This document shows, one piece after another, positions 1,887 to 62,161 of a DNA stretch of 64,000 bases; the first letter of the stretch is position 1, and each line of letters starts with the position of its first letter. The notes beneath the pieces were generated by a model. That model did no database searches, was not told the DNA's origin, and saw only the letters and a list, made by a program, of their open reading frames with translations. The DNA is taken from NCBI GenBank assembly GCA_964035545.1, contig OZ037765.1:22266495-22330494 (forward strand). Reading direction: 5' to 3'. This DNA is from Bugula neritina (lineage: Eukaryota; Bryozoa; Gymnolaemata; Cheilostomatida; Bugulidae). A program made the translations under genes and the position numbers.

Positions 1887-4800
1887 TCAAATGGTGTCCT
1901 TACAAATAAATCACTGCCTTTATATTTTATTCATCATATTTGTACATACAATTACAGTCTTGGATTTGCTAGTGTAGAGAAAAGACTTGCTATAATAAAA
2001 AATGTAAACACTCTCTTGGTTGTATGACCCTTGAGGTGATTAGCGTGTGCCATCATTGTGTGCATTGCCATATTTATTTTCAATATCTCTGTAATGTAAC
2101 GGAAGATGAATATCAATTAAGAGAGATGGCTGTGATGGATTTTTTAGAAGCGTGTCATAAATTTAATAAAGCTAATTTTATTCTAACAATGATACAATTA
2201 GAATATTGATGTATCATAATATAAGATAGAAGTGACTGGTCAGAGTGCCATTAGAATAAGATAATAACAAATGTTGAAAGCTCTTTATGCCAACACTAAG
2301 CGTGCCAGTGCAGTGCCATATCAGTGCAGGTGCATCGATAAAAACTGCTGGAGAGAAATATAAGTTACATTTATAGCTAGCTTCTTTGCTTGAACAATAA
2401 AATTAAAATAGAGGTCAATGCAAAAATTTACCTTCAATAGGCATTATGAAGTTGTTATATTTTATTTTTGTCTAATAAATAATGCTAAATTTATAAGATA
2501 TTCTTATAATCCATTTCTGCATTGGCTGAAACAGTTCTTAGTAATATACAGCCGTTTGGTATCACATGACATAATATTATTTTATTTTGCAGTAATTTAA
2601 TTTTTATTACCCAAGTCTAACAGTAGCTAGTTTATTTCATTAATCTAATATTATAACCATGTTGCATTCCCACTCTACTTTTTATTTGGTATATTTTGGC
2701 AGATTGCAGTAAATCAGCGAATATACAAAACACTTGCGATTATTGAGCTGTTTTATAAATAATGTATAAGTCTTGAGGTATAATTGTGCTTGGCTGGAAT
2801 CAAATACTCAACAAATAACGATGAACTTCAATTATAAACGCATTATCGCTGATAACAGACCTAATGAAAGCTCCATTATGCAAATAAAATGATTAATAAT
2901 TATGATATTTTATTCATATTTCTTTGGTGGCTAAGTGAATATTATTGATTAAGTTTCTATCTTATACTGACTTTCATCATTTGGTTTGCAATTAGAAAAA
3001 AAAAACAAATGGGAAGTAGAAAAACTTGGAGCCACGACAGTAAATAGGGATGACAGAATGACCTGGCCATAAGCTGGTTTGTAAACACATGTTTATAGAT
3101 AATGCCTCTCCTAAACTTGAGTGGAAAATTGATCATAGGGCAGACTTACACCACACACCACGAGTATGAGTTCTTTACACAAAAGCACAAGAAAGTAATG
3201 TTCTTAAATATTTAATTACTTGATATTCAATATTAAGTGGGCATAAGATGTTCCACCTGCCATTAATACTGTGAGTTCAAAGATATGTTCTTGTTCATTA
3301 TCACTCATTGTATATAGTTTACAGGTGATGTTTGACATTGTTAAACAACAGCTTTAGTCATTTATCCTAAACTTAATGCACCAATTCAACAAAAATTTAT
3401 AAGTTTACGAGATAAAAATAGACTGAATTTCAGCTATACTTTTAGCTACTTTCTAAACTTTTTTTATTGCAAAATGAGATAATATTTTTGTTTGCTGAAT
3501 TTAGATAGCTAATTAAAAAATAGTTATTACTAACTAATTGCATTCATAAAAAGTATTTGCATTTTTTATCCATTCTCTCAGAACAATAATTAAGACTTGA
3601 GAAAAAATTACATAAGGAGAGAGAGCAGAGTTCAGAGTTCAGAGCATTACTGGTTGCCTTTTCTATTATGCTGCTCAAGGTTTAATTTACTGTATAATAA
3701 TTGAACTTCAAAAATAGCAATTTCAAAGTTATGTGTTTTAATTTGAACTTTCGGTAAATAGCTCTCAGATGTTCTTAAATATTCTGAACTGTATAGAACT
3801 TAGACTTGGGGCTTACAATTCCATTTGGAACCAAGTCTTATTGATAAGAGTACAAAGATTTCAGTATAGTGTGGAGACTATTCTTATCATGTAACTCCAT
3901 TCGTACTATAATCATGAAACTGTTATATTGTATTGTTAGATGTCCTCTTTTCTTCATAAAGATAATATAAAAAATGAAATTGCTCCAGATTTTACTGTCT
4001 GGAATTAAAGATCTTTACCATTCAGTAGAATTTAATTCATATAATATTTAGTTACTTCTAGTTACCCCCCCCCTCCTAAATTAAAAATATTTACAAAATG
4101 TATGAACAATAATAAATAATATGTTCTATGGCAACATAGTATATATAATAAGGTTGCCTTTGTATATGTTGAAGTAAGCATGCCTTGTAGCTGATGGATC
4201 TATAAAAGTAAAGTCGAATTCTATTCTATAAGCTGAGATCTGTCCTGTGAGTAGTGTCTGCTCCTAACTACAAACATGATGTCATGATTCGCCAACACTA
4301 TGACTTCCTGTTGCCAACAGCTAAGAAAATGTTGCAATAATCAAGTAATATGAAACATTGAATTATGTGTATGACGGAAATACTGATTTGTAGCAAGCTC
4401 AGTTAAACATTTTTCATATTCAAACTAAATCAAAATAAACCAGGAAATCCTTAGTAAAATATAAAATCAAGCCATGAAGTTATAAATGGTAAAATTAGGT
4501 TTTATAAGTTAACCTTAAAATACTGTCAATGAAAGATGATATACTTAAATACTCGCAAAAGTATTTAAAAATTGTTGGGATAAAATAGTATTTTAAAGCC
4601 ATTTTATAAGCATTATATAGTACTTGTTTATTAATTTTACAGGAAACTTTACTTTTGAGGTTATAAAACTCTAGCTAAAGACATATTTTATAATTTGAGC
4701 AAAAGAAGGTTGTTTTTTTCTGCACCAGTAATCTAAAATGACATTTATTTTTTATTCTCTTGTAAAAGCTAGTTGAAAGTTTACCTAAGGTTAGGCTGTT

Positions 4801-7380
4801 TAATTATGTGTATACACACAGATCTACTTCTAATTTAGACTTAAATTTTGGTTTAGTTTTTATGTTTTTTAATTTGCTATATGCACAGATAACTTTTCAC
4901 ATTACAGACATAAATACTGTAGTCTTGTGTTTTCTTTTTATGTTTGAAACTTTATTAACACGTAAGCATGTACCACAAAAACAGATTGAGTAAAACAAAC
5001 GTCATAAACTTGAGAAACGTATCAGTGGCTGTGTAATACAGTATAAAAATACACTGTTAAAATTGAAATCCACTACAAAACACATTGAGGTATATATGCG
5101 TGCGTGCTCGAGTGTGTGCGTTATCACAATTTTAGCATATATCTAGCAGATGACTGTTTGGTATATAAACAACTCAACTCAACAAATTAATATTTTTAGT
5201 GACCTAAAATTACCCTTATTATATAATAAATATGCATTGCATTGTTTACATAATTTTGTGTCGATATGCTAGAATGGTTGTATTTTGGATTGGATTGTGA
5301 AATTTGGTTGACAATAGCTGTGGAGTGAAATGAGTTGTCTCCTCATGTTTTCATTTCTCCTAATTGAAACTTATAGCATATAATATGCAGCTGTTTAGTT
5401 ACTTATACTAAAATTTTCATTTGCAAAAGTATGGTTTCTATAACATAACATGCAGCCTTCATTTTAAGCTGTTATTCCGTTTTATTGCTATACGATTATT
5501 TGTGTATTAAAACAAAGGCCTAAAGCACAAGTATATGCATTCTAACAAACACCTAGTGTTGTTTGGTCCAGGGGATAAGTTATTTGACACTTTTAGTAAT
5601 GATACACAATTAGACATAAACAGAATAATTCATTATCACTAAATAGAGGTAAACGTATTAATAACGCTGATCAACATCACTGGAAAGAAAAATTTTTATT
5701 CAAATGTAACGGAGTTGTTGCTACTATATAAAAAAACGGAAGTTGTAAGGCGGAGCTTATTTTGTCAACAAACATTAGAAACTGGCAATGCTGAATTATC
5801 AGAATCGGTTAATCAGCAATCAGTAACTTTTGGTTTTCCCACATTTTATAGAATTGCATCAGCATGTTCTTTGTCAGTTTATGAAAACACTAACTTAGTG
5901 ATAAGATAACAAGTATCAGTTTAGACTGACGTGTCATTACACTTAATCTTCTTGCAAAAGAGTAGCATTTGCTCTAACTCTGACTCTCACACTCAGTAAT
6001 CGTGAGACTCAAACTGAGTGTCAACTCGCACGGTGACTGTCATTTTGACTGTGACTGTGAGTGTCACTAACTTTGTCGGTGCCTGAAAGTGAATTGGAGT
6101 CATTTGTTGACGGTTTGCTTCATCACTAATACTATAAGTAAAGTCTTATAGTTATTGCCTATTGCCATTGGACTTGGAAATTGTTTTTTTAATTATTATT
6201 CCAATTTAAAATGACTTTCTGCTCTAGAAAAAAGTTGTGAAGCACATTAAAATTGAAATTCATTATTATAGTTGTATTTATTGTAAATATAATTAATCTA
6301 TTATATATTAATATAAAATTTCAATTTATTTTGTTTTACTATTTATATATGATTATTATATAATGCATTTTTAATTTTATTATTTATAATTAAATTTAGT
6401 GCCAAGTCAAATACCATAGTACTAGTACTGATAGTCCATGGTAATGACGGACACTAAAAATGTAAGCCTGAATAATAGTAAATGTTTCTGAAGTTCAAGT
6501 TGAAGTAATAGTGCTCACTTCCGCTGGTGTCACTTACTGTCATTCAAAGGTAGATGCAGCCTAACCACACATTCAATTTTAGGTCTTTCTTCATTTATGC
6601 TTTAATCTTAACTATTATAGCCATTTAAACCTAAGTTACTTAGTTGGGGTGCTATCGTAACTAACTCTTTAATTAGATTATGAAATAATTTTGATCTATC
6701 ATATGCAATTTAATAATTGATAATTTAGTTAAAGTTATCAATCTCATAATAAGCATTAGGTTGAACTTTTATAGTTTTATGCAAAATATGTTGTTTTTTT
6801 AATTAAAGTAGCTACACATAATAGTCATGGCCAGTTTTTACTTTCTAACAATAGAATAATGTTCTCTATCTTTTCTGCTAAGCTACTCAAGTCATAAAGT
6901 CTATATAGTTTATTTTACTTTTTTTAATATGGGACAATCTTGTTTCTTTTTAAGGTATATATTTTTGATAGACATTGAATTTGTCTGCAATGCAAACTCA
7001 TAGGTTTTTTTTATAATAGTAGCATGCTCTGATATTCTAGATTAGGTCACTTCATTTTTAATTTAGGCTTCATTCCAGGGTCACAATAAAGGTGTGAAGC
7101 TTTGTTAGCACTGTATTCGACTAGTTATCTAACCAATGATGGTTTTTTAGTTACTATTTATTTATTTTCCAATTAATTAATTGAAATTTATTTACTTATC
7201 AATGAAATTGTAACCTACATGTGGTTTAGTTTGAAAAACTTTAGTTTAAAAACCAGAGTGACTAATGCAACTATTGCTGCCTTTTTAGTTGGTGTAAAAG
7301 AATAAAAATAGTCAGCTGCATGGTTATAAAATATTACCATAAGATAAACACACTAGTATTTTGTGTATCTCTAACTGCAG
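1887..7380. other. Intergenic spacer between divergent homeobox and CCPG1-like genes
   Basis: About 5.5 kb of AT-rich DNA between two divergently transcribed genes, so it should hold both promoters. I found no exon with a convincing family match. The short open frames here (for example 2024-2209, 2418-2600, 4808-4993 and 5715-5909) have unremarkable composition and no recognisable domain. A low-complexity stretch of GACTGTGA/GAGTCTCA-type words lies at about 5970-6070. The second gene has a splice acceptor just upstream of its ATG, so an unplaced 5' noncoding exon and its promoter should also lie in this spacer. Confidence 0.5.
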
Positions 7381-7388
7381 AAATCAGT

Positions 7389-10300
7389 ATGTCCTCGCCA
7401 GATGGCTCGGTGGTTGATGGACCATCTCCAGAGGGTGCGGCTAATGATCTATCACAGTCTACCAGTGGAGTCAGTGAATCGTCTCTGCAGAGTAGTGTGG
7501 ATCAAACAAATCTGCAGAGTGACCTTATCAGTAGCCAGACATCAAGTTGTGGAAATCTAACTGACAGTTGGAATGAGGTCAGCCTGTCTCAGGTTGGCAG
7601 CATAGAAGCAGGGACAGATACTCCCATGACTGGCTCCAGTTGCGAGTTTGTCCAAGTATTATCTGCATCTCTGGACTCTGATTTGGAAGGTTGTATTATT
7701 ACTATGTACATAATGCTGTCTAATATTCGTTTTTTTTCACTAAATTCATTGACTCACTGGAAAGTTCATCTATATAATCATGTCATTTAAAAGCATCAAC
7801 TCTTCAAAAGATATGCCTCTGTCATATTTGATAGTTGTTTTCGCATAAAATCGTTGTGCATGCGTGTGTGTTGTTAAATTGCTAATACTTATAAAGAAAT
7901 TTGTAAAGTTATCTACTAACAGTTCTTGCAACCGTGTCTGTCCATCTATTTTGTGTAAATGATACAGGTACTAATTATTCTTTTTAAGATCAAATTGCTT
8001 ATAGTGTCAACATAATTATTGGCTTATTGAAATACGTTGTACTTTTTAAAATTTTAAATATGATACATGAATTTAATGTCTTATTGTGTGTCAGTAAGTA
8101 TTTAATTCAATTTCTTGGCAACTATTAAAAAAATGTTATTAGAAAAATAGTTACATAATAAAAGATTTTAATATATAGAATTTTTGCTTGAATTGAACAT
8201 TTGGCTACTGATTAGGACATTTGTTTGTGTCTTATTATTAAACAACTATAAATTTTCTTATAGAGTCCGGCCCTTTGAAAAAGTTAGCTATAGATTCGGA
8301 CACAAGTGACGATGAAACAACTATCAATCTAAATGGCAGTGCAGTCGAAAGTATTAGTAAAGATGAGGATAAAGATGAGGAACTAAGAAATTTGATGGAG
8401 AAACTGTAAGCTGATAAGAAAGACTTTTTTCTCTACCTGGTCTTTTTGCTTTCAAATTCTATGTGTAGCTTCTGAGTTTGTTTGCATTGCAGTTGACAAT
8501 TCTACTCTTTGTAGAATAGTAAACTGGCAGCCTCATAACATTTTACTTTTAAATATAATACTTAGAAACTGAATAGACTTGAAATATTGAGAATATTGTT
8601 TCAATATTTTAAAATTCTGATTATTGTCAACTTTATTCAACATACCCATGAACAGAAAATTCAGTTTTAGTATAAAATGTTTTAAACAAAATTTTACTGT
8701 CTTTATTTGTATCTGCTTTTGTATCAGTACAGGTAATGAAATAATTCACAATATAATAATATAATTTACAATATAATAATATAATAATAATGTTTATTTT
8801 GTTTTTTTTAGACAAGAGAGGGTAAAATCAGGATCTCCTAGCCATAGTGGTAAGTTGAATATAGAGTATGCTAACTGCAAACTATCACCTACCATGTTGA
8901 CTATGTTGAGAGTTTTCCTATCTATTCTGTAACATCACAATATTCTACACTGTAGCCAATAACTGTTGATAAGCAAACTGTATGTTTAGGTGGATTTGCA
9001 GGTAAAAACATTCATATGTTGCTTTGCTTAGCTTCCTCTCACTACACTTGCATCTAGAGTTAGTATTACAGATGGCCACACACAGAGTGGGGAAATTAAA
9101 CATGTTGAAGTTATACATTTTTATTTCAATTGATCAAACTATTGCAGCTGCTATATGTAGTGTGGTGTTGTGATTACTAGTTCTACCTTTCGCTACTGGA
9201 TTATTTGCATATCAAGATATTAACATATCTAAAATATGGATAACAACAAAGTTGCATTATGATCTGATAACCTGATGTACTGTAAACAAAAAGTAAAATA
9301 GATAATTAGATATTTACGGGCTTTCCATGTATTGATCTCAGATCGATCTCGCTGAGATCGATCTGAGAGATTGATCGTTTTTCCATGAAAGCGTCAGATC
9401 GATCTTGTGTAGTTGCCTCCTCTTAAGTGAATACAGTTTTTAAGGATAATTTTTCACCCACTTGGGCGATTAAAGCTACTTTGATTAAAAAAACAAGATC
9501 GTTGCAGTCTAAAAATTAATGCCAGCTATAAACTATGTGTGGCAAATCTTTTAGCGTGAAGTAATTTGACCAATTTATGATAATCAATTTTAATTTTTTA
9601 GCTTGACAGCTTATATAAAATTAATAGCTGTCTTGCAGATTATTCACAAACTTACAGGATTGTTAGGCTTGAAATTACGCAGCAAATAGCTAATGAAAGT
9701 AAGTTTTACTAGCCATTTAAATTCAATTTAAATGCTCCTATTTTTGTACCTTCTACCGTCTATAATTTTATATAATTGAGTTTTTTTTTTAATCATAGTA
9801 CTGAAAGTCAAAGTTTTAGCATCTGAAAATGTGGCTATGGTAATTATTAAGTAATTTGCTTAGTAATTAACAATGAGTTATCATTTTTATTAGCTGACGG
9901 CATTTTAGCGAACAGTCTTTTTCTACTTATCAGATCGATGTTTCATTTTTCCATGGTCTTATTACCTTGAGATCGATCTGAGTTCGAGCTCTACAGACGA
10001 CCAGCTCAGATCGATCTTTGGCGTCTTTCCATGGATCGATTTAAAGCATTATTATAAGGTTATTATAAGAATTCTGGTTTTAAAACTACCAGTCTGTAGT
10101 TAATGCTATTAGCTCTAGTATTCTTTATTTTTATATGATTTCTAATGTAAGCAGCAGGTCATATAGTATATTACATATTACTAGAACCCAAGCCTTTTAA
10201 AAAGTTATCTAATTTTGTACCTGCTAGTGCGTGTAACAAGCCGTGTAAAAGTCAAATTATTGCCAGTAATGTGATAGATCGATGTTCATGGAAGGGTTTA

Positions 10301-22282: not shown

Positions 22283-24214
<1,932 letters not shown>

Positions 24215-31989: not shown

Positions 31990-32180
31990 TAGCATCAACT
32001 GATACTAGTATTAGTACTACTATTACTACTAGTACTACTAGTAGAGTACTAGTACTATTAGCACTAGTAGTAGTACTCAACTATGTAGGTTGATAAATAG
32101 ATTACTACTACTAGTACTATGTATCAACCTACTATTAGTAGTAGTACTAACTGTAACACTAATACTAATAGTAATAGATT
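31990..32180. repeat. ACT/AGT-rich low-complexity tract
   Basis: Long runs of ACTAGT, AGTACT and TACTACTAG words, which are self-complementary and can form many small hairpins. Similar words recur at 57370-57420 and 60585-60610. Confidence 0.75.
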
Positions 32181-32625
32181 TCAGTGCGAGTACGAGTCAT
32201 CACTGAGTTACTCACAGTCACTGTTACTGTGAGACTTGCTCTTAGTTAGTCTTAGTGTTACTTAGTCGTAGAGTCAGTCCGAGTCTTACAGTAATAGTAA
32301 TACTAATAGTTACTGTTAGATTTGGTCACTAACTTAGAATTACTGTTAGTGCTTTTACTTTCAGCTTTAACTTTATGTTTAACTTGAATCAACTTTATCA
32401 GTTCATGAGATTGAGTTCAAGTTGAAGTTCAACTTCGAGTTTAAAATTCTAATTTCATTTGGTTCAAATATATAACATGAAGCTTTGCTTAACTTACTTT
32501 TAATCCAAATTGTTTAAAGAAAGCCTCTTGCTTCAAACTTAAGGAATTGAGATAGGTATATAACAGTAGTATTATAAACAATCGATAAATTAAAATCGTT
32601 AACTTTTTCAGATATTCAACAACCA

Positions 32626-51772: not shown

Positions 51773-54700
51773 TCAAAGAATCTGCCCCATGGCTAGTGCC
51801 ATTGCATATGCATATATAGCTTGACAAGTTTGCTCTACTTCCAAATATTGACGAGCCTCACTGATCCAATCTTGAGCTAAGGTTCTGGGCACACCTTTCA
51901 ACTGTAACATACATCTTACAGCCTCAATCATAGAGTGCCTATCAATGAAATACCGAGCTTGTATTAGCAGGTCTTTGGTGCTCATTCCCTCAGTGCCAGA
52001 TTGGTAAAATTCAGATGAGGTTGTGTACTTTGGTTTCTCACCAAAGTGGGTCATTGAACCATAAGCTCTGGAAAGCCACGCAGAAAATATATTAGAGGAG
52101 TCGGGTAAAAATGCGCTTTTTCTGCATTCATTGAAAACTATTTCAAATCTTTTTTCAAGAGAAGAATGGGTGTAGAGTCCAAATGAGAGAACTCTTTCTG
52201 GTATTGAATCAAGCAACGCTTGAACGAAAGTGTCAGTCGGACAAGCTTGTCTGCACATATCTACAGCCTCTTTGATATCCACTGTATGAAATGGAGTCGA
52301 CGCCACTGGGTCTACAAACACACCAGCCAATTGAAACTTAGATTATCTATCCGAATAGAGTGGCACGGTAAACAAATTCAATTCATCATCAAAATATCTA
52401 TAAAATAATTTAATATACAATCCTAAATGTTTATACATACATATAATTTATAATAAACATTTGCCAAGCAACTGTATTCTACCACATGACAGTGCCTGCA
52501 TTAAAAGAGGCAAAGCATGTCCGCTAACTAGATTTCTAAAACTAATATTTATAGTAAAAAATTCAAGAATGTTCTGAAAAACTTCGCTTTACACCGCAGT
52601 ACACCGATAATTGTTTTCAACTTCTAACCACCAATATAAGTATTACCAACATGCTCTAAACACATCATGATGACTTACAAAAACACTTTACATAACAGTT
52701 TTGAACTGGTCAAAACCTGTTTGTTATTTAGAGGAAGTTTATCCATTTTCAAACGTTTCAACCTATTAACTAATTATCCTATACTAAATGTTATGTTCCA
52801 TAGACAAACACAATGATTCATCATACAGTCTTTACTCCTTTCAACTAAGAAAATCTAAAAAATGTACAACTACTTAAACCAGGAATATCTTAATAGTTCA
52901 CCTCGACCATCTATTGAACAAGGTAGTGTTAGAAAATTTATCAACAACTGAACGGAAAAGATCTCTTTACAGATTGCAATGAAATATTTTTGCTATCAAG
53001 AGAAAGTAACTTTAACTGTATAAAATGAAATTATGTTGAAACAACCTCTACTTTTTATAGGATGTGAAATGTTGACTTTTGTTTGCAAACATTCGTATTC
53101 AAATAGGTAAGGTCACGTTGGGCACCATTAGACCTTTTGCAATATTCCTTTCACCCTGCACCTGTCACAGTGGAGTTGACAGAGAGCCTAGCTATTACTA
53201 GCAGAGCTTCAGTACAAAGTACCATAACTTTTGGATTGAACCTATAATTTTCGAAATTTACTTCAAATTCTCAACGTTTGATTCACAGTAACCATTAGAA
53301 AAGTTGGCAATGGATATTATTTAACTAGAAACTCAAGTTTAATATAAAACAGCAAATAACATTGTCAATTTTTCCCTCCTCTCTGTCAAATATCATATAA
53401 AGTTCGATGTCGCGGTGCAATTTTACACTTGACAGAGCCGTGATTGATTAGTAGAAAGAAAAGCAAAGTGCTGCGCTATTTTCAAGGACAATATATGTCC
53501 CATTAGCCTGACTATTTTTATACCGAAAGCGTTTAAATGATAAAAATACTGCAAATGACAGAGGTATCACAAATAAACCATGTCAAGTGGTTACGCCCTA
53601 AAATACCCATTTCAATTAGTTACTGAGCTTGCACTTGGCGTCATTACTTTGTATCATATTATTAGAGTGTCTGACGTTCTCTTAACATCATAGGGTCTTA
53701 GATACACTTTTTGGCTGCCCAAACTCACTGTAACATTGAAAGGGCCAAATAACTCTGCCAAATTTTGGCTCACGAGAGCATAACAACTTGGCCAAAAGAA
53801 AATATTTTTAGTGTTAGTTTTAATTAGTACCAATGTTGCAAAGATCATTTCCAGCTCAATAATTGCACAATAAGGTAAATTTGAATGTAAATTGAAAAAT
53901 CTGGATTGCGCCTAAACACACCATAATGAAAGACGTAATTACAATCTCGTTCCAGTTTCGAATAATAAACTTGAAATGTTATTTCTCAACACACCAGAAA
54001 TGAAACACTCAGACCACCAAGCAGCTACCGCCAATACCAACATCCGCACTCTCAACTAACATCCGTACACCTCGCAGAAGCATGACTCGCTACCTCCCAT
54101 AAAACAACAAAGTTATCACATGTGAGAATACATATCAAGAAATTATTCCACTTTTAATTACAACTTCAAAAATAAACAAGCCGAAATGTTTTGTTACCTT
54201 TTGAAAAATCAATGCGATCAACAAAGATATTGTCCATGCAAATTAAAAGCTTTTCCAAAGTTCCGGTGTTACTAATATTTGGGGGAAATTTATGGCTGCG
54301 TTACGACGAACTTATAGAATTTAAAAGTTCTGCAATGAGAAAAACAGCAACTGATAAAAAATGGAGAATGTTTGCAGACGAGCCTTAGAGACGAGACGCA
54401 GGAAAACACGAGGGAAGAGATGAGAAAGTAGGGAGGTATTTTCGTGCCAACGAGTTTTGTTTTGCTAAACTATGTGCAGAAGTTCAGCTGCCAACAGGGC
54501 TGAAGTGGATCCCATGAACTTACATCCAGGTTCGGAAAGTCAGCACGCAGATTGTCCAGGAAACTGCTCCACAAACATTACAAAACTTGTTTGCTTGTAA
54601 TTAAATGTTATTCATTACATTCGAAAAAACAATGTTGACTCGTTGAGAGATTCAAATGCAGCTGGTGACACTGCAATTTGGTTAGTTACTTTCTAAAAAG

Positions 54701-57700
54701 AAGCTCGCTGTGTTCTTACTGCAAAACATCTAGAAAACAATATTCTCATAGATTGCAATTATTTTGGTAAAGCTGAAAGAAGCTGACAATTTTATTTGCA
54801 AGGATGAATACTCTATATATATTAGGTTAGAATAAAATGGCGAACATCAGAAATGCCTGTAAATGAGTAGAGCAACTGATATATAATTAAACACACAATA
54901 TACTGACCATCATTAGCTAGAATATACTTGAGTCTGTGTGCACTTTGTGTCAGCTGCTGTAGGCGCTCAAAGATAACATCTGCATCACCTTTATCTACAG
55001 TAGCAATCGAACATTAGAAATGGAAAATTTCTATGAATATGAAATTTTCAATCAAAGCTACAAATAACAAATATTTCCAAACAAAAAATATTATGCAACC
55101 ATGGATAAATAATGCTACTCTTGAAAACCATTTTCTAATAGAAAAGAAAGCAAAATTTTTATTTCAAAATATTACTATATATAATTTAAAGGAAGCTTTT
55201 TTAACACTAATTACTCAAAAAGGGTAAAAATATTAATTCACGGTGACAATCTCAAACCCAATTTTTATGATTCAACATATTATTGAACCAAAGTTTTGTG
55301 CCCATAAGGTCCTTATTCAGACAAAGTACACCACTATGAAGCTGTATAACAATTTAGAAAGTGTCATTGTACCAACAACATGGGCTAGAAGTTGATCTAC
55401 TCTGGAGAGAGAGTGGGCCACAGACTCTTTGTACTCCGACATCTCCTTCTCAATTATTCTTCTGGCGGAACTCTCATGCTCATCGGCCATTTGCTTTTCT
55501 TGCAACCTCAACATGTCAATCTCGTGTTTCTTATGAGCCAGGCGAGTTTTAGTCATTTCTGATTCCATTTCTTTATTCAATTCTACAGCCTTTGACTTTA
55601 GCTAGACAAATTCATAGATAATATCACTTAAACTGCAATGATAAGATGTAGTAAATTGCTACAACTTTCTAGAACATAAAAGTTTTGAGATTAAAATGAT
55701 ACATAGAACCATAGAAGCATTTCCATAAAACTTTTTGGTGGTGCTCAATAGCAATTTCAAACTAATGCAAAAAAGTGGGCTGACCTAAAAATTTGCCGAA
55801 CAAACATAAAATGTACCCTGAATTTTAGAGCTGGATAGATAACACATACTTCCGCTTGATATATAAACAGTAGTGGGTGGGTAGTACATGGGTATTTAAC
55901 TAAACCTACAATTTGTTTTGCAGAGTTGCCAAGACTATATGGGATCATAAAGTTGAGAAGCTTAGTTCTAAGGGCAGTGCCAACTAGTTCCAAGTAATTA
56001 GATGTTACCGGCTTTTAAAACTTGCCAATCTTATGAAATTTAGTTGACCCTTTTTACAAGGTCGTAAGAAATTCAGGATGTGACTTGTGACTTTAATCAT
56101 GCCTCTCTTGTTTTGACAAATTGAATCACAGTGGTTTTGCAAGATTTAAATGCCAATTTAAAAGTTTATTTGTGCAATTTAATTAATATGGCATAGAGTG
56201 GCAGCCCCTTATGATTTGAAGATTACCAAATCTATACATGACGTTGCTAATGGCTATAAATGATAAGGAGCATACAGAAAATTTTTTTCATTTACAAAAA
56301 GTCTATAATTATTACAAACATAATATCCAAATTACTTCAGTAGCTAATTTTACTAAACAAAAAAGACTAAAAATAGAAGGAAAATAAACATATTAGAAAA
56401 GTATAAAGCATAAAAATATATTACCATGAAAGATATTCTTAAGATTTTCTGCCACCTTGCACTTTTTGCACCATCAAAAATTTAGACATACGAAGTTAAA
56501 CTAATAAAATTATTTTTTGTGCTGCAAAAGTATATTTTACAGTATAGAAATGCAAAAACACACCAAAGTTGTATCACTACTTCTGCCAGTTTATATGACG
56601 AATTTTATCATTATGCGAGATAGGTGCAGCTAATCCCAAGCTTTCCAATGATGTAAAAACTGTTAAAGAATTCCTGACACACTTTACTTATATAGCATGA
56701 AAATATTCATCTATGTCTTAGCTATCATTTTAACACTCTTTTAGGGTTTCAGGTCTAAACAATTTTGTTTTATAACAGTTTTAGTGCATGCATGTCCAAA
56801 AAACTTCGAGAATTTTTTTCGCCCTTCTGTGACGTATTACACCGCAGTTGCGAGAAATAGATGGAAACGCCGCCTGTAAGACATTCGGAAATTAAGTATT
56901 GGCTATATTTTCCGTTGCATGTAACCTTAGTTTTAGCATTTTTAATTTATCGGACGTCTGTCTAGCCCCCAATTAGTATTTTTTTGTGGAATTTAGGTTT
57001 TATTTCATAAACAAATTTCGCGGCAATAAATACATAGCTACCAACTTACCGTGTCCGAGTCTGTGCAGTGTAATTGTGATAAAGATAAACCTAATACAGA
57101 AATAACATAAATACGATATCAATATGAACATATCTGGCTCTGACGAAGAATACTTAGAGCACAGTGAGAATCGCAATGAGTATGACTATGACAATCACAC
57201 TCACGCTGTCACTGAGATTTCTGAAGTAATGGGCTATCAGTTTGAGCCGTTTACGTATCAAGATGAAAATGGAGATGATAGTCATGACAAGGATTTTACT
57301 GTTACTGATGAGCAACAGGTGATAATATTTATAATTTTACAGTATCAGTACGATTTAATTTTATAAACTATAGTGTTACTAATACCGTAATACTAATAGT
57401 AATACTAATACTAATAGTAATACTTTAACTTTAAGTTATAAGTATAAGCTAGTATAAGTTATAAATTATTATAATTATAATATTTCATTTTCATTTTGTA
57501 ATCGAAATTCCAATGCTCAATGCCAATGCTCGTATTGATCCTGGCTTAATTAGTTAATATAGCTGAGTTTTGTGCTACTAAAGCTTTAGAGCAAGCATGA
57601 TATCAAATTACAAGCTAAATATTTGATGATTGCTACCGGTTTATATAATAATAATATTATTAATAATAAAGTGATAATCATTAAATTTAATGATTACAAA

Positions 57701-60700
57701 TTCCAGTCAAGTAATTAAATATTTGATCAATACTAATTTTGTTATTACTACTACCAATACAGGTATTAGTATTAATTATTTGTAGTTAGATTTACCTGAT
57801 AATTTAAGTCAAGGGAAAGACCGTATTTTTATAAATGCATAATAATGATAATTATTATTCACTTTTATTGTAATTGTGGTTATACCGATCCTTAACAAAA
57901 TAAGTTAATCACATACATAATCATGTGAAACTTGCATTCACGATGATAGCATTTAGTATTTTATTTCTAAGCCCCCTATTTCTCTGAATTTCTGCTTTTA
58001 TAGTATAACATATAGTACTAACAACAATAAAATATTTTAAAATTTCTGAAAATTAGTTTATTTCATAGCAAAAATTATGAGTTTGTTTTGATATAAAAAA
58101 TCTAATTAATTTTCAACTATAAATATAAAAATAGTTTGAACAGTAATGCAAACTTGGAATATTTTAAAACCCATGATTTTAAAGTATTTTCAAACTTCAG
58201 CCTCATTGGACTCAATTTTCAATACAAAGAAACATACAGGAAACAAATTTAGACACAGTAATCAATGGACTTAATGTGGATGATACTGGTAATAACGTTT
58301 TTAGAAAAGCTTGTTTGTTTTGTAGAAAAATATAAGGCCAGCCACGGAGTGGTGCACTTGCCACCGCTGCCAAAATCAGCCTACAGTGGAACAGTCTGTT
58401 TGTTGCCGTGATCATGCTGCAAACCTTCGATTAGATAGCAGCATGGAATGTATAACACTGCACCCGGGAGTACAGCAATTGACGCAACCAGCTGTATTAG
58501 AAGTTGCATACAGCAGCTACCTGAGATATCATGGTTAGTCAATTGCTACTGTAGATCAGTAACTGTCATTGTTAGTTTTTCTAGATAGTCTTACTTGATT
58601 ATTTAGCCAATCATTTATTTTGGTAGATGATTTGTTTGATGAGAAGGCCCATTCTCTCAACACTAAAAAAAGGTTCTGCAGCTACCGGTTTTTGGTGTTC
58701 TGGCTGTTTCCAGATATTAAAAAGGGTGAGAGACGCCCTTTACCAGCTTGCTTATACGATTGGGTGCAAGCTACATTCCCCCCAACTGAAGATGAGGAAG
58801 AATTTGCTGAATGGATGTTCAGCAAATTCGTGTACAATGAAGATTTATGAACATTAACACTCTGGTGATTTTTAGTAGCAGTCAGTTGCTACTGCCTCTT
58901 GTAGTGTGTACAGCTTACTATGAGAATAAACCTCATTATTTGCAATCTCCCTGACCTTTGAAATTAATTTACCGTTGAGTTTGAGTTGCAATAATGGTGA
59001 ATATACTTCAATATGGTGACTATTTTTGCGCTGAACTTTTCAAGTGACTCTAAGATCATATTCTACAATATCTACATTTCAATGGAAACTGAGACTACAA
59101 GTAGATATATTGTCCAAATTTATTTTTGACACACCTTGAGGTGGAAAATTAAAAATATTATTTCCATTACACAAAAATATTTGGTTTTTTGTTGCATTAG
59201 AACATGCATTTTAAATAAAAATAAATATGTAGAAAAGCTATGAATTCAGTTTTTGAGCTAAGTGAACAATACTATTTCGCCATATTTCTATATACCAGCA
59301 TTGAACAGCTTTGCTTCTAATCTTTTTCTGCATCCTTTTAGGTGTTTGCACATATTTGTTGTGTCCTATTCCTTTCTGTAGGCCCTTCTTTTCTGGCTTA
59401 CGATGGAGAGCTGGTTTTTTTGTTTGACTTGGCAAAGCTCTAAAATATTATTATATATGAAGGTAACTGGAAAAGTATTATTGAAACAGCTTCAGAAAAT
59501 CTCAATTGCTGTCTATATCATATTTCAATTTTATTGCTCAAGATCGCATTTTCAATATTATAATCCTTACAGAAAACCAGGGTCTGTTCTTTTTAACCAG
59601 CGAGCTTCTTTAGGTGTGATAGTGGCCGCCTGCTGACTTTGTTTCCGAGGAGTTAATGGAGTGCATCCAGTTGCACCCTCAGTTTCCACTAAATGAATAG
59701 TTGGGACTGCTGTTTTCTCTAAATGCAATCTAAAGAGTAAATCAAAGACAATGAATTTTTATTCTTTCAATAAGTGAACAATATTTACCATTAATTTTTA
59801 CTGGTATTGATGATGGGCACCATTACCAGTATCATACTCATAGCATGAGTATCAGTGCGTATGAATCATAATATTAATGGTATGTATCCAAGTGACTATG
59901 ACACATTCTGATAATCATAAGTCTTTCATATTATCGCCATTATAAATGAATTTCCTTACAATAATGGTTATCGTGTAAATCATAAATGCAAACTTGTACT
60001 TGCAAGTTTATGTCATAGTCACATGAAATTGAATCAACACGGTCATGACAATCCTATTGACTTATACCAACTTGTAGTAATACTTGATACTAGTTGATAG
60101 TTATAGTTATACTTATTGTTGAAAATCAACATTAAAAAAACTATCATTAGCCTATCGTCTAATTATATCACAATCACTAAGTCATTAGTCAGTATCACTA
60201 TGACTATGAGTTTGAGTGAGTTATTCACTTACATGTTAATGAGTTTTGTTTTATACATGCCCATGTTTGTAAATTGTTCATCACCAAAATGCTGAAAACA
60301 CAAACGAGAGTTGTTATCAGGCAGAAAGTTTTTTCTTTTCGTATTGACAAACTTGGTCCATTTTTCACCACACGCAGTATCAGCAGGCCGTTTAAACATG
60401 TGTTTTTCCTTGTACGAACACATTGCAGCTTCACACACTCTTCTTTTGCATTTGCCTTTAGAACTTGAAGCCATTCGTGTAGTCATGTCGACAGTAAGTG
60501 TAACTAGTAATATAGGTAATAAGTTTGTTCATTAGAGTCCAATGGCAATATGAATATGAAATCTAATTTATATAGATAGCGAGCGACTACTACTAGTAGT
60601 AGTACTACTAGGCACAGGTTATATTGGTAATATCCGGTTACGGTAATGATAATCTATTTGGAAGCGTAATAAGTTACATAATTGAATATGCAATTATTTG

Positions 60701-62161
60701 TAATGTTTTATAGAAAAGTTTACCACTCGTTGGATTTAGCTAATTTCTTTCAACAATATCGTGTTATCCCCGTACTTAGCCACCCGTTCTAATTACATCG
60801 TGAGGGTGAGGCTATTTCATTTTTCCGATGCTCAAAATTTCTAACGGAAGTAACTTTAGCTCTTAATATCAATAATAAAATGGTATCATTTGTTTTTTTC
60901 ATTGAGCCTTAGTTGTACTCTGTGTTTTAAAATTTATGTCAGTTTAGTGATTTATCTGTGTGTTGCAGTGGCTAAAAATAAAATGCTGTGAAAGTATGCA
61001 ATTATTACTATTAGTTATATAGTAACTAGGACTCGAAGCAGACCGGAAACCGGCGTAATACGTGTGCACTGAGAGCTTAGAAATCCGAAAGTTTTCTGGA
61101 CATGCATGCACTAATCTTGTTATAAAACAAAATAGTCTAGCCATCCACCCTCAAAGGGGTGGTCTAGTGATAGCTAAGATATAGATGAATATTTTCGTGC
61201 TATATAAGTAAAGTGTGTCAGGGATTCTTTAAGCAGTAGTAGATCTTCAATCCAACCACATGTAGACAAAATTCTGCCAGAAAATTACTAACAAAGAAGC
61301 ACTTTAACATAAAAGTACACTGAAATTTATCATCCTATGTTTTCAAAATGGAAGATTGTTAATACCTAATTTATGATCAAATGTTGCCAAAACTGCAGAT
61401 TTTATATTTTTTGAAGCAGATAATTAGTTTTACTGACGGCTTGATGTACAGGATACAGCCGCTAAGTCTACAGTGTCCTTTGCACATCACTTTGCTATCA
61501 GCTTATAGTCTAACTAAATATTATTTTATTGAAGCTATGATGCCAACACTGAAAAGTTATTCCTTTATTAATCACGGCGTCAAGAGCTTTCAAGTGGTAC
61601 TATTTTAAAACTCTTGGCAGAAATATCAAAAGGATAAACGGTACCAACCAGATAAAGCATGCAACTCAACCCTGCAGTACATTTAGTAGGAAGATCTTAA
61701 CTAGAAGAAAGTACATTCTCAAACCAAGAATGTTACAAAATTGAAACCTATTTTGACAAAACTATTAAAAATAAATTGTTTTTGTCTTCAGCTGCACCTA
61801 TCTTCGACGCATTTGAGTTTGCAACTTATACGACTCCACAACTTTATCTTATAACCACCGTCATTTTTTTGTTGACTTCCACCCTACCAAAATAACCCTA
61901 TGAATTCTAATTTTGAGTATACATGAAGCTTCCGAAAATTTTTCCAAGCAATATACTAATAAACAAAAATGTTTTGCAATGTTTTGTATTTGCGTTAGAC
62001 TAAGATTCATAAAGATACTGAGAAAACCCAAGCTAAGCGAGTTTCTAGAATACCTGATCATCTCTCGCCACTTTGCACTGCTCTGCCTGCTGACTCAGGT
62101 TTTCTTCTAGTCTTTTCCTAAACTCTGAGTCATCAGCCATTCTCTGTTCACCTAAACTCTC
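51773..62161 (-). CDS. immt: MICOS complex subunit MIC60 (mitofilin), 3' part
   Basis: Four coding exons in phase: 62161-62054, 55601-55373, 54994-54908 and 52311-51773, the last ending in a stop. They encode the C-terminal 320 aa; the 5' exons lie beyond the right edge. The first two are charged coiled coil (EQRMADDSEFRKRLEENLSQ, and SARRIIEKEMSEYKESVAHS ending DQLLAHVV). The last exon is the mitofilin signature domain: ALLDSIPERVLSFGLYTHSS, LEKRFEIVFNECRK and, near the end, LQLKGVPRTLAQDWISEARQ before the YAYAMAL helix. MIC60 is anchored in the inner mitochondrial membrane and organises crista junctions and contacts with the outer membrane. The intron at 55602-62053 hosts a 4.56-kb mobile element; the splice sites around it are intact. 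Confidence 0.93.
52312..54907 (-). other. MIC60 intron, no further feature seen
   Basis: AT-rich intron between the last two coding exons. The open frames here (53654-53848 and 54191-54388) have no recognisable domain. No repeat structure was identified by eye. Confidence 0.4.
56667..56853 (+). repeat. Left terminal inverted repeat of the ballast/THAP element
   Basis: Matches the right-end repeat in reverse orientation, near-perfect over the first 70 bp or so, then with gaps and substitutions. It ends near GTGACGTATTACACC, shortly before the ballast gene. Confidence 0.85.
57124..58850 (+). CDS. Stand-alone P2X7-ballast-domain-like protein encoded in the transposon
   Basis: Three exons in phase, 57124-57318, 58326-58533 and 58627-58850, give 208 aa. 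The acidic N-terminus holds YQFEPFTYQDE; as I recall, FEP-type motifs are frequent ahead of this domain. Exon 2 begins the domain: WCTCHRCQ (74-81), a CCRDH pair (91-95), ECITLHPGVQQL (106-117) and VLEVAYSSYLRYH. Exon 3 continues with SYRFLVFWLF, ERRPLPACLYDWVQATFP and EFAEWMF. Order and spacing follow the cysteine-rich, zinc-binding cytoplasmic ballast of vertebrate P2X7, including the CITxHP, AYRxFxxW and RxxxPxCxxxxxRxxFP patterns. There are no transmembrane helices and no P2X ectodomain, so this is not a receptor. Its function is unknown. AATAAA at 58925 lies about 75 nt past the stop. A further small exon in the 1-kb first intron cannot be excluded. Confidence 0.8.
58925..58930 (+). terminator. 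Poly(A) signal of the ballast gene
   Basis: Canonical AATAAA, about 75 nt after the stop at 58850 and before the start of the convergent THAP 3' region. Confidence 0.55.
59119..59124 (-). terminator. Poly(A) signal of the THAP gene
   Basis: TTTATT on plus, AATAAA on minus, about 115 nt after the THAP stop at 59238. Confidence 0.45.
59238..60486 (-). CDS. THAP-domain protein encoded in the transposon
   Basis: Three exons in phase, 60486-60233, 59729-59571 and 59439-59238, give 204 aa. The N-terminal domain fits the THAP zinc-finger spacing: C18, C23, C63 and H66 (C-x4-C-x39-C-x2-H), with the conserved Trp at 43 (GEKWTKFV) and CFQHF at the CxxHF position. THAP domains bind DNA and are shared by P-element and Kolobok transposases and many host regulators. 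The rest is short and basic (KKPALHRKPEKKGLQKG, TPKRMQKKIRSKA) and shows no DDE/RNase H-like catalytic core. It could bind the element's own termini or regulate it. It is convergent with the ballast gene 0.4 kb away. Confidence 0.8.
61040..61228 (-). repeat. Right terminal inverted repeat of the ballast/THAP element
   Basis: Reverse-complement partner of 56667-56853. It contains GGACATGCATGCACTAA, TTGTTATAAAACAAAAT and TAAAGTGTGTCAGGGATTCT at the very end, next to TTAA. The segment AGACCACCCCTTTGAGGGTG (on minus) differs from the left copy. Confidence 0.85.

Follow-up and report, generated by a model that had tools for sequence, protein, structure and literature searches.

The stretch of Bugula neritina DNA analysed here, 64,000 nucleotides of contig OZ037765.1 (the window; C1:22266495-22330494 of a 215.8-Mb genome), contains a 4.56 kb transposon at positions 56663-61232, TTAA flanks included, that is very probably a non-autonomous, internally deleted derivative of a Kolobok family of the Kol0 lineage, moved in trans. 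Its two visible genes encode a ballast-domain protein and a THAP protein. Why would a mobile element carry these two genes and no recognizable transposase? An earlier note on this DNA had proposed either a new element type or a derivative mobilized in trans, and only the latter stands. The transposase core has been lost at 59067-59069 and the ends are intact; DDE parts of the transposase survive in a longer copy with the same ends (L017), and a second Kol0 family (L032) holds the whole set. Because the window copy is without the DDD/E transposase core, it is not a complete autonomous Kolobok element and is filed only as a derivative. One candidate for a new class of transposons is thereby struck off.

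The element and its family

TTAA target-site duplications bound the element at 56663-56666 and 61229-61232, just outside terminal inverted repeats at 56667-56844 (forward strand, starting AGAATTCCTGACACAC) and 61051-61228 (reverse strand, terminating GTGTGTCAGGGATTCT). Aligned without gaps, the inverted ends are 85% complementary over 144 bp; with gaps and with TTAA counted, they extend to about 182 bp. The earlier note had placed the element at 56667-61228, an exact match once TTAA is left out, and was equally right about the TTAA on both sides, the long inverted ends and the two spliced, convergent genes, each of which has three exons and GT..AG introns in the predicted splice models.

The termini recur, and the family is mobile. 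At full length, the left end occurs at least 27 times in the genome, the window copy counted, and the right end a similar number of times; the best 40 of about 300 candidates were scored in these searches, and the end counts are lower bounds. Twenty copies with both ends (L009-L028) were fetched, together with one interrupted by a long terminal repeat (LTR) element. In 19 of these 20 loci both genes are present within the shared ends, a linkage in other copies that the note had named as a check. All 22 copies (the 21 loci and the window copy) have TTAA flanks and AG...CT ends, a count that is biased as regards TTAA because the end queries themselves held it. The TTAA duplication holds despite this bias, since a flank-to-flank comparison gave no matches between copies and since L013 has an empty counterpart. 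When the two flanks of L013 are joined, all 300 bases find a match of 95-100% identity at 14 sites without an insert (scoring covered the best 40 of 302 candidates); the top score is shared by five of them, and a single TTAA is present at the empty sites. At the occupied site the match splits into two halves, 1-150 and 147-300, that overlap at TTAA.

The family has moved recently, since L015 and L016, on different contigs (C9 and C1), are identical across 4548 bp and 2 of 4568 positions separate the window copy from L009. Small copies that have neither gene also occur, one of 1160 bp (L024) and one of 408 bp. LTR retrotransposons interrupt L029, L030 and L031, L013 lies within such an element, and the left flank of L018 also matches one of the LTR type.

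KolX and the transposase gene

The ballast-domain gene lies on the forward strand, with predicted exons at 57124-57318, 58326-58533 and 58627-58850 (stop at 58848-58850). Its 208-residue product matches the Pfam model P2RX7_C (PF20478; E = 1.2e-13) and P2X7 chains in the PDB, 6u9v among them (E = 7.7e-5 and 5.6e-4). In the alignment with P2X7, the WCxCxxC, CIT and CxYR motifs and the C-terminal cysteines match up; eight cysteines are present in all, with WCxCxxC and the CC pair encoded by exon 2. Kojima and Bao (2022; PMC9587614) describe a Kol0 lineage of Kolobok elements that encode, besides the transposase, a second protein, KolX, which adopts the ballast fold and from which they derive the P2X7 tail; the hosts named there are vertebrates, annelids, cnidarians and sponges. 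By similarity, the ballast protein of our element is best identified as this KolX, an accessory protein already published for Kol0 elements, and not as the chance transposon cargo that the earlier note had envisaged. The P2X7 ballast and the nanor proteins (PMC7016195; PDB 6u9v) have the cysteine-rich ballast domain in common with KolX but are products of host genes, descended from KolX according to PMC9587614. The full set of parts behind the published view of the ballast domain as a protein of transposons can now be seen in one genome; how P2X7 acquired it is outside the reach of this result.

Two other sets of ballast-like sequences were encountered. Six ballast-domain exons stand in tandem at G000:C6:12940873-12946177, spaced about 1 kb apart and 47-51% identical to KolX; they are perhaps an older or host-gene cluster. 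Among the matches listed there are also dozens of pieces scattered over the genome that are about 54% identical to residues 146-184 of KolX; most contain one TGA, and they look like a single repeat family carrying an old ballast fragment.

The THAP gene lies on the reverse strand, with predicted exons at 60233-60486, 59571-59729 (which includes an AVPTI box) and 59238-59439 (a basic region, running to the stop of the shortened protein). Its product has 204 residues, and the Pfam THAP model is matched completely (1-87 of 87, AVPTI included; E = 2.2e-7). L017 (C8:9090067-9098293) carries an extra 2.8 kb at the site of the window copy's junction. The THAP strand of this extra DNA codes for SLTTDRHVQIQAYMRTKWPNVQHFFDTWHICKG and, farther on, KENTSELESFHALLN; TTDRH...FDTWH and then NTSELESFH, located between KolX and THAP, are motifs that in a Kolobok transposase we would label second D, C/DxxH (DTWH) and, at the end, the E region. 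In the second family, L032 (C6), KolX and THAP are again convergent, and the parts of its transposase gene follow one another on one strand: THAP, AVPSI, a CxxC exon, GDGRCDSPGHS, TTDRH...FDTWH and NTSELEAFH. L033 (C5) has KolX and DDE exons as in L032, and a THAP match was not found in the 7 kb fetched.

The THAP protein would accordingly be no gene of its own, as the earlier note had it, but the front end of a Kolobok transposase, with exon 1 encoding the N-terminus; we read it so because THAP and DDE exons lie on the same strand and in order in L032, an arrangement that the surviving DDE exons of L017 repeat. THAP domains are usual in Kolobok transposases (PMC6004289), and the note's linking of THAP and TTAA to Kolobok proved sound: this is a real TTAA transposon of that kind. 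With Kol0 elements of the Kolobok-1_XT type, as described in PMC9587614, the family has in common the TTAA duplication, the 5'-RR and YY-3' termini (AG...CT here), KolX with its conserved cysteines and a DDE transposase, here with THAP; within the same ends, this DDD/E transposase with C/DxxH is represented by the parts surviving in L017 and by their similarity to L032. The window copy differs in missing the catalytic transposase exons.

Internal deletions

How was the transposase core lost? Aligned to L017, the window copy has a deletion junction at 59067-59069 with a 3-nt overlap, corresponding to L017 positions 2427/5274, and the same junction is found in L009, L010, L011, L012, L015 and L016. 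Five primary deletions can be distinguished relative to L017: those of L013 (2298/4881), L020 (2618/5118) and L027 (2171/4625), a type at 2478/5034 in L014, L019, L021, L022, L023 and L028 (L025 has a nearly identical junction), and that of L018 (2269/4691, plus an additional loss). Their junction overlaps measure 3-7 nt. The five are mutually incompatible, every one retaining bases missing from the others, and therefore at least five deletions are independent, a separation that exchange between copies could blur. The window-type deletion and that of L026 (2232/5092, 1-nt overlap) could be secondary.

The left breakpoints range from 37 bp before to 410 bp past the KolX stop, with L027 losing the last codons of KolX, and the right breakpoints end short of THAP exon 3. 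The kept arms are similar in length, 2.2-2.8 kb from both ends. The rank order of left and right breakpoints is perfect in the five primary deletions; in all seven the correlation is not significant (rho 0.64, p 0.12).

L017 is itself defective. Judged against L032, it is without the stretch that includes the first D, and the gap is filled by a 101-bp insert (3848-3948) that is 100% identical to 7831-7931, DNA just outside its own left end. In P elements, which make 8-bp target duplications, repair of the excision gap can halt early and the ends be rejoined with a piece of flank. The gap in L017 is as abortive gap repair of this type would leave it.

We propose that a complete element would carry two convergent genes, KolX and a THAP-DDE transposase. 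After excision, the break would be repaired by copying from the sister; if copying stopped early, the middle with the catalytic exons would be lost at short microhomologies, and both ends, KolX and the THAP exons would be kept. Abortive gap repair may thus be the cause of the other deletions as well as that in L017. Deleted copies could not excise themselves, and their intact ends would be moved in trans by transposase made elsewhere.

Source of the transposase

Where might this transposase be made? Three queries were run against the genome, with all candidates scored: the part of L017 from the second D to E, the part of L032 around the first D, and the nucleotide sequence that the deletions removed. 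These three genome-wide searches found no intact transposase of the window family in the assembly; all that they recovered of it was L017, some short remnants and a diverged fragment (84%) at C5:7800422-7801105. The earlier note had asked whether other copies carry a Kolobok transposase between the same ends; L017 does so for the second D, DxxH and E parts, and in these searches no copy did so for a complete enzyme.

The long copies were considered as transposase carriers and rejected: L030 (whole), L029 (7.1 kb of 12) and L031 (8.0 kb of 12) hold frames of LTR retrotransposons, which, like those flanking L013, are presumably of the Gypsy type. No transposase was seen in L029-L031, where the genome-wide searches gave just a 393-bp remnant of the deleted stretch.

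Since no intact transposase of its own was found, the window family would depend on one from elsewhere, either a complete copy missing from the assembly or perhaps the second family; we favor a complete copy that is now absent. The sister copies L022 and L028 have the same frame-breaking insertion in THAP exon 1 and, most simply, moved after the gene broke. The family is caught in decay, with at least five independent deletions, flanking DNA in one gap and recent spread although no complete copy was found in the assembly.

Selection and alternative explanations

Do the retained genes matter? In an alignment of 20 copies (L024 and L030 left out), KolX is open in 12, THAP in 11 and both in 7, where the frame of THAP exon 3 depends on the splice model and L013 shows AT for GT at one KolX donor. 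The number of broken copies is 8 for KolX and 9 for THAP. When substitutions are placed on a tree, the inner branches have 16 nonsynonymous and 2 synonymous ones in KolX, and the tips 28 and 7. The corresponding figures are 7 to 2 and 10 to 10 in THAP exons 1-2, a ratio of nonsynonymous to synonymous rates (dN/dS) of about 0.3 at the tips, and 3 to 2 and 7 to 3 in exon 3; all these counts are small. Changes per site are 53/627 in KolX, 44/612 in THAP and 419/3328 in the remaining sequence. Coding sequence has thus changed more slowly, but the silent sites of KolX are equally slow (9/141), and the difference is no argument for selection on its protein. Judged by substitution counts, selection retaining both genes is unsupported for KolX and mixed for THAP.

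Could the ballast and THAP proteins nevertheless be the mobility machinery of a new two-gene type that needs no DDE enzyme? The two genes recur together, and both are open in some copies, but in L017 and L032 the DDE exons are collinear with THAP on one strand, the deletion junctions account for the loss of DDE, and Kol0 elements have already been published (PMC9587614); we consider such a type highly unlikely. The recurrence of the pair between the same ends likewise refutes the idea that two unrelated host genes happen to lie between repeats, an idea with nothing found in its favor and a probability of practically nil. A piggyBac element would also duplicate TTAA, and a few piggyBac families carry a KolX-like protein. 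The ends here, however, are AG...CT (5'-RR, YY-3'), as in Kolobok, WCxCxxC, CIT, CxYR and the C-terminal cysteines align with P2X7, and THAP and DxxH mark the transposase parts; neither ends nor transposase are those of piggyBac, to which the element is exceedingly unlikely to belong.

A further explanation accepts the deletions but supposes that those keeping THAP and KolX were favored since their products repress or steer transposition, as in the KP elements of Drosophila. Five independent deletions do retain THAP exons 1-3 and KolX (save its last codons in L027), the truncated THAP protein of 204 residues is close to the 207-residue KP repressor (PMC7776569), and the nonsynonymous share at the tips is low in THAP exons 1-2. 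In KP and other internally deleted P elements, as PMC7776569 and PMC12393704 present them, the catalytic part is deleted and a THAP DNA-binding protein of about 200 residues is left, as here, and in one experimental population deleted elements could displace complete ones (PMC12393704). P elements, however, belong to another superfamily and have no KolX, and their KP acts as a repressor where our case offers analogy alone. Moreover, KolX shows no purifying selection and neither do the inner branches of THAP (again on small counts), both genes are broken in many copies, and the 1160-bp and 408-bp copies exist without either. The breakpoints are nearly equidistant from both ends, as limited repair synthesis alone would give. 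We therefore regard selective retention as improbable. In a Kol0 derivative moved in trans, the short THAP protein may still be made and, like KP, may occupy the ends and damp transposition; KolX may have some role too.

Several points weigh against the reading as a Kol0 derivative moved in trans. The KolX and THAP splice models were drawn from DNA alone and are predictions. The D, DxxH and E labels are tentative and follow the short definition in PMC9587614, and the transposase piece of L017 matched no Pfam model at the cut-off, the best being Mutator-like transposase (E = 0.0069). The first-D exon was seen in no copy of the window family, whose complete transposase is deduced from the L017 parts and L032, and the ends of that second family were sought and not found. 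Finally, the single flank of the window copy searched for an empty site in MIC60, the likely host gene discussed below, is unique in the genome and gave no paralogous empty site.

Six-base-pair duplication zones

In a comparison of the 20 aligned copies with their majority sequence, 30 distinct insertions measure 6 bp; lengths of 4, 5, 7 and 8 bp account for 6, 6, 5 and 4, and 6-bp deletions number five. Insertions were told apart by position and sequence, and a few neighbors may be single events. All but two of the 30 fall in two zones, together 29% of the length, one at the KolX 5' end (57042-57650) and one at the 5' end of the THAP gene (59917-60695), both approximate and drawn after the data were seen. 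Twelve insertions are exact copies of the next 6 bases and 10 differ at the junction base alone; 2 have one other base changed, 3 have two bases changed and 3 are not copies. The altered junction base is the complement of the next base in 8 of the 10 (p = 0.003 against one third). Neither faulty alignment nor a generally high mutability explains the zones, because polymorphic columns are no denser there (89/1383) than in the rest (215/2919; 19 copies, with L027 and the junction region excluded). L032 shows the same texture at 1-1000 and 6501-7500, near the 5' ends of both genes.

What could write such near-copies? The pattern resembles hairpin-forming excision footprints or fill-in duplications at breaks. 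No element that makes such a 6-bp duplication is known to us, and none of the papers listed in our literature searches describes the pattern. One possible but doubtful explanation is an unnamed mutational process in which break repair inserts 6-bp near-copies, the breaks coming from a novel hairpin-forming cut-and-paste element that homes to active promoters or from the Kol0 machinery. If true, a process tied to no named element would be writing new codons into KolX and the transposase gene. The zones are a side result, open to comparison in other Kolobok families.

In the window outside the element, near-tandem pairs are more frequent than in shuffled sequence at all periods from 5 to 10, and an excess at period 6 alone therefore says little. 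The bins that stand out are the element zones, 6001, 32001 and, weakly, 22001, the last being not alike on reading. Degenerate hexamers of comparable texture (such as GTTCAA GTTGAA GTTCAA) are visible at 5950-6530 and 32000-32440, the latter partly a simple repeat at 32003-32077.

Genomic context

A Mitofilin (MIC60) domain is encoded on the reverse strand at 51773-52342 (Pfam, E = 1.7e-27). The element is likely inserted inside MIC60, and we say only likely because a coiled-coil-like open reading frame between the two (55317-55601, reverse strand) gave no match in a Pfam search. Rfam and tRNA scans of the window returned no matches. On the forward strand at 22283-24214, open frames encode C2H2 zinc fingers and resemble what we take to be a Fezf-type gene.

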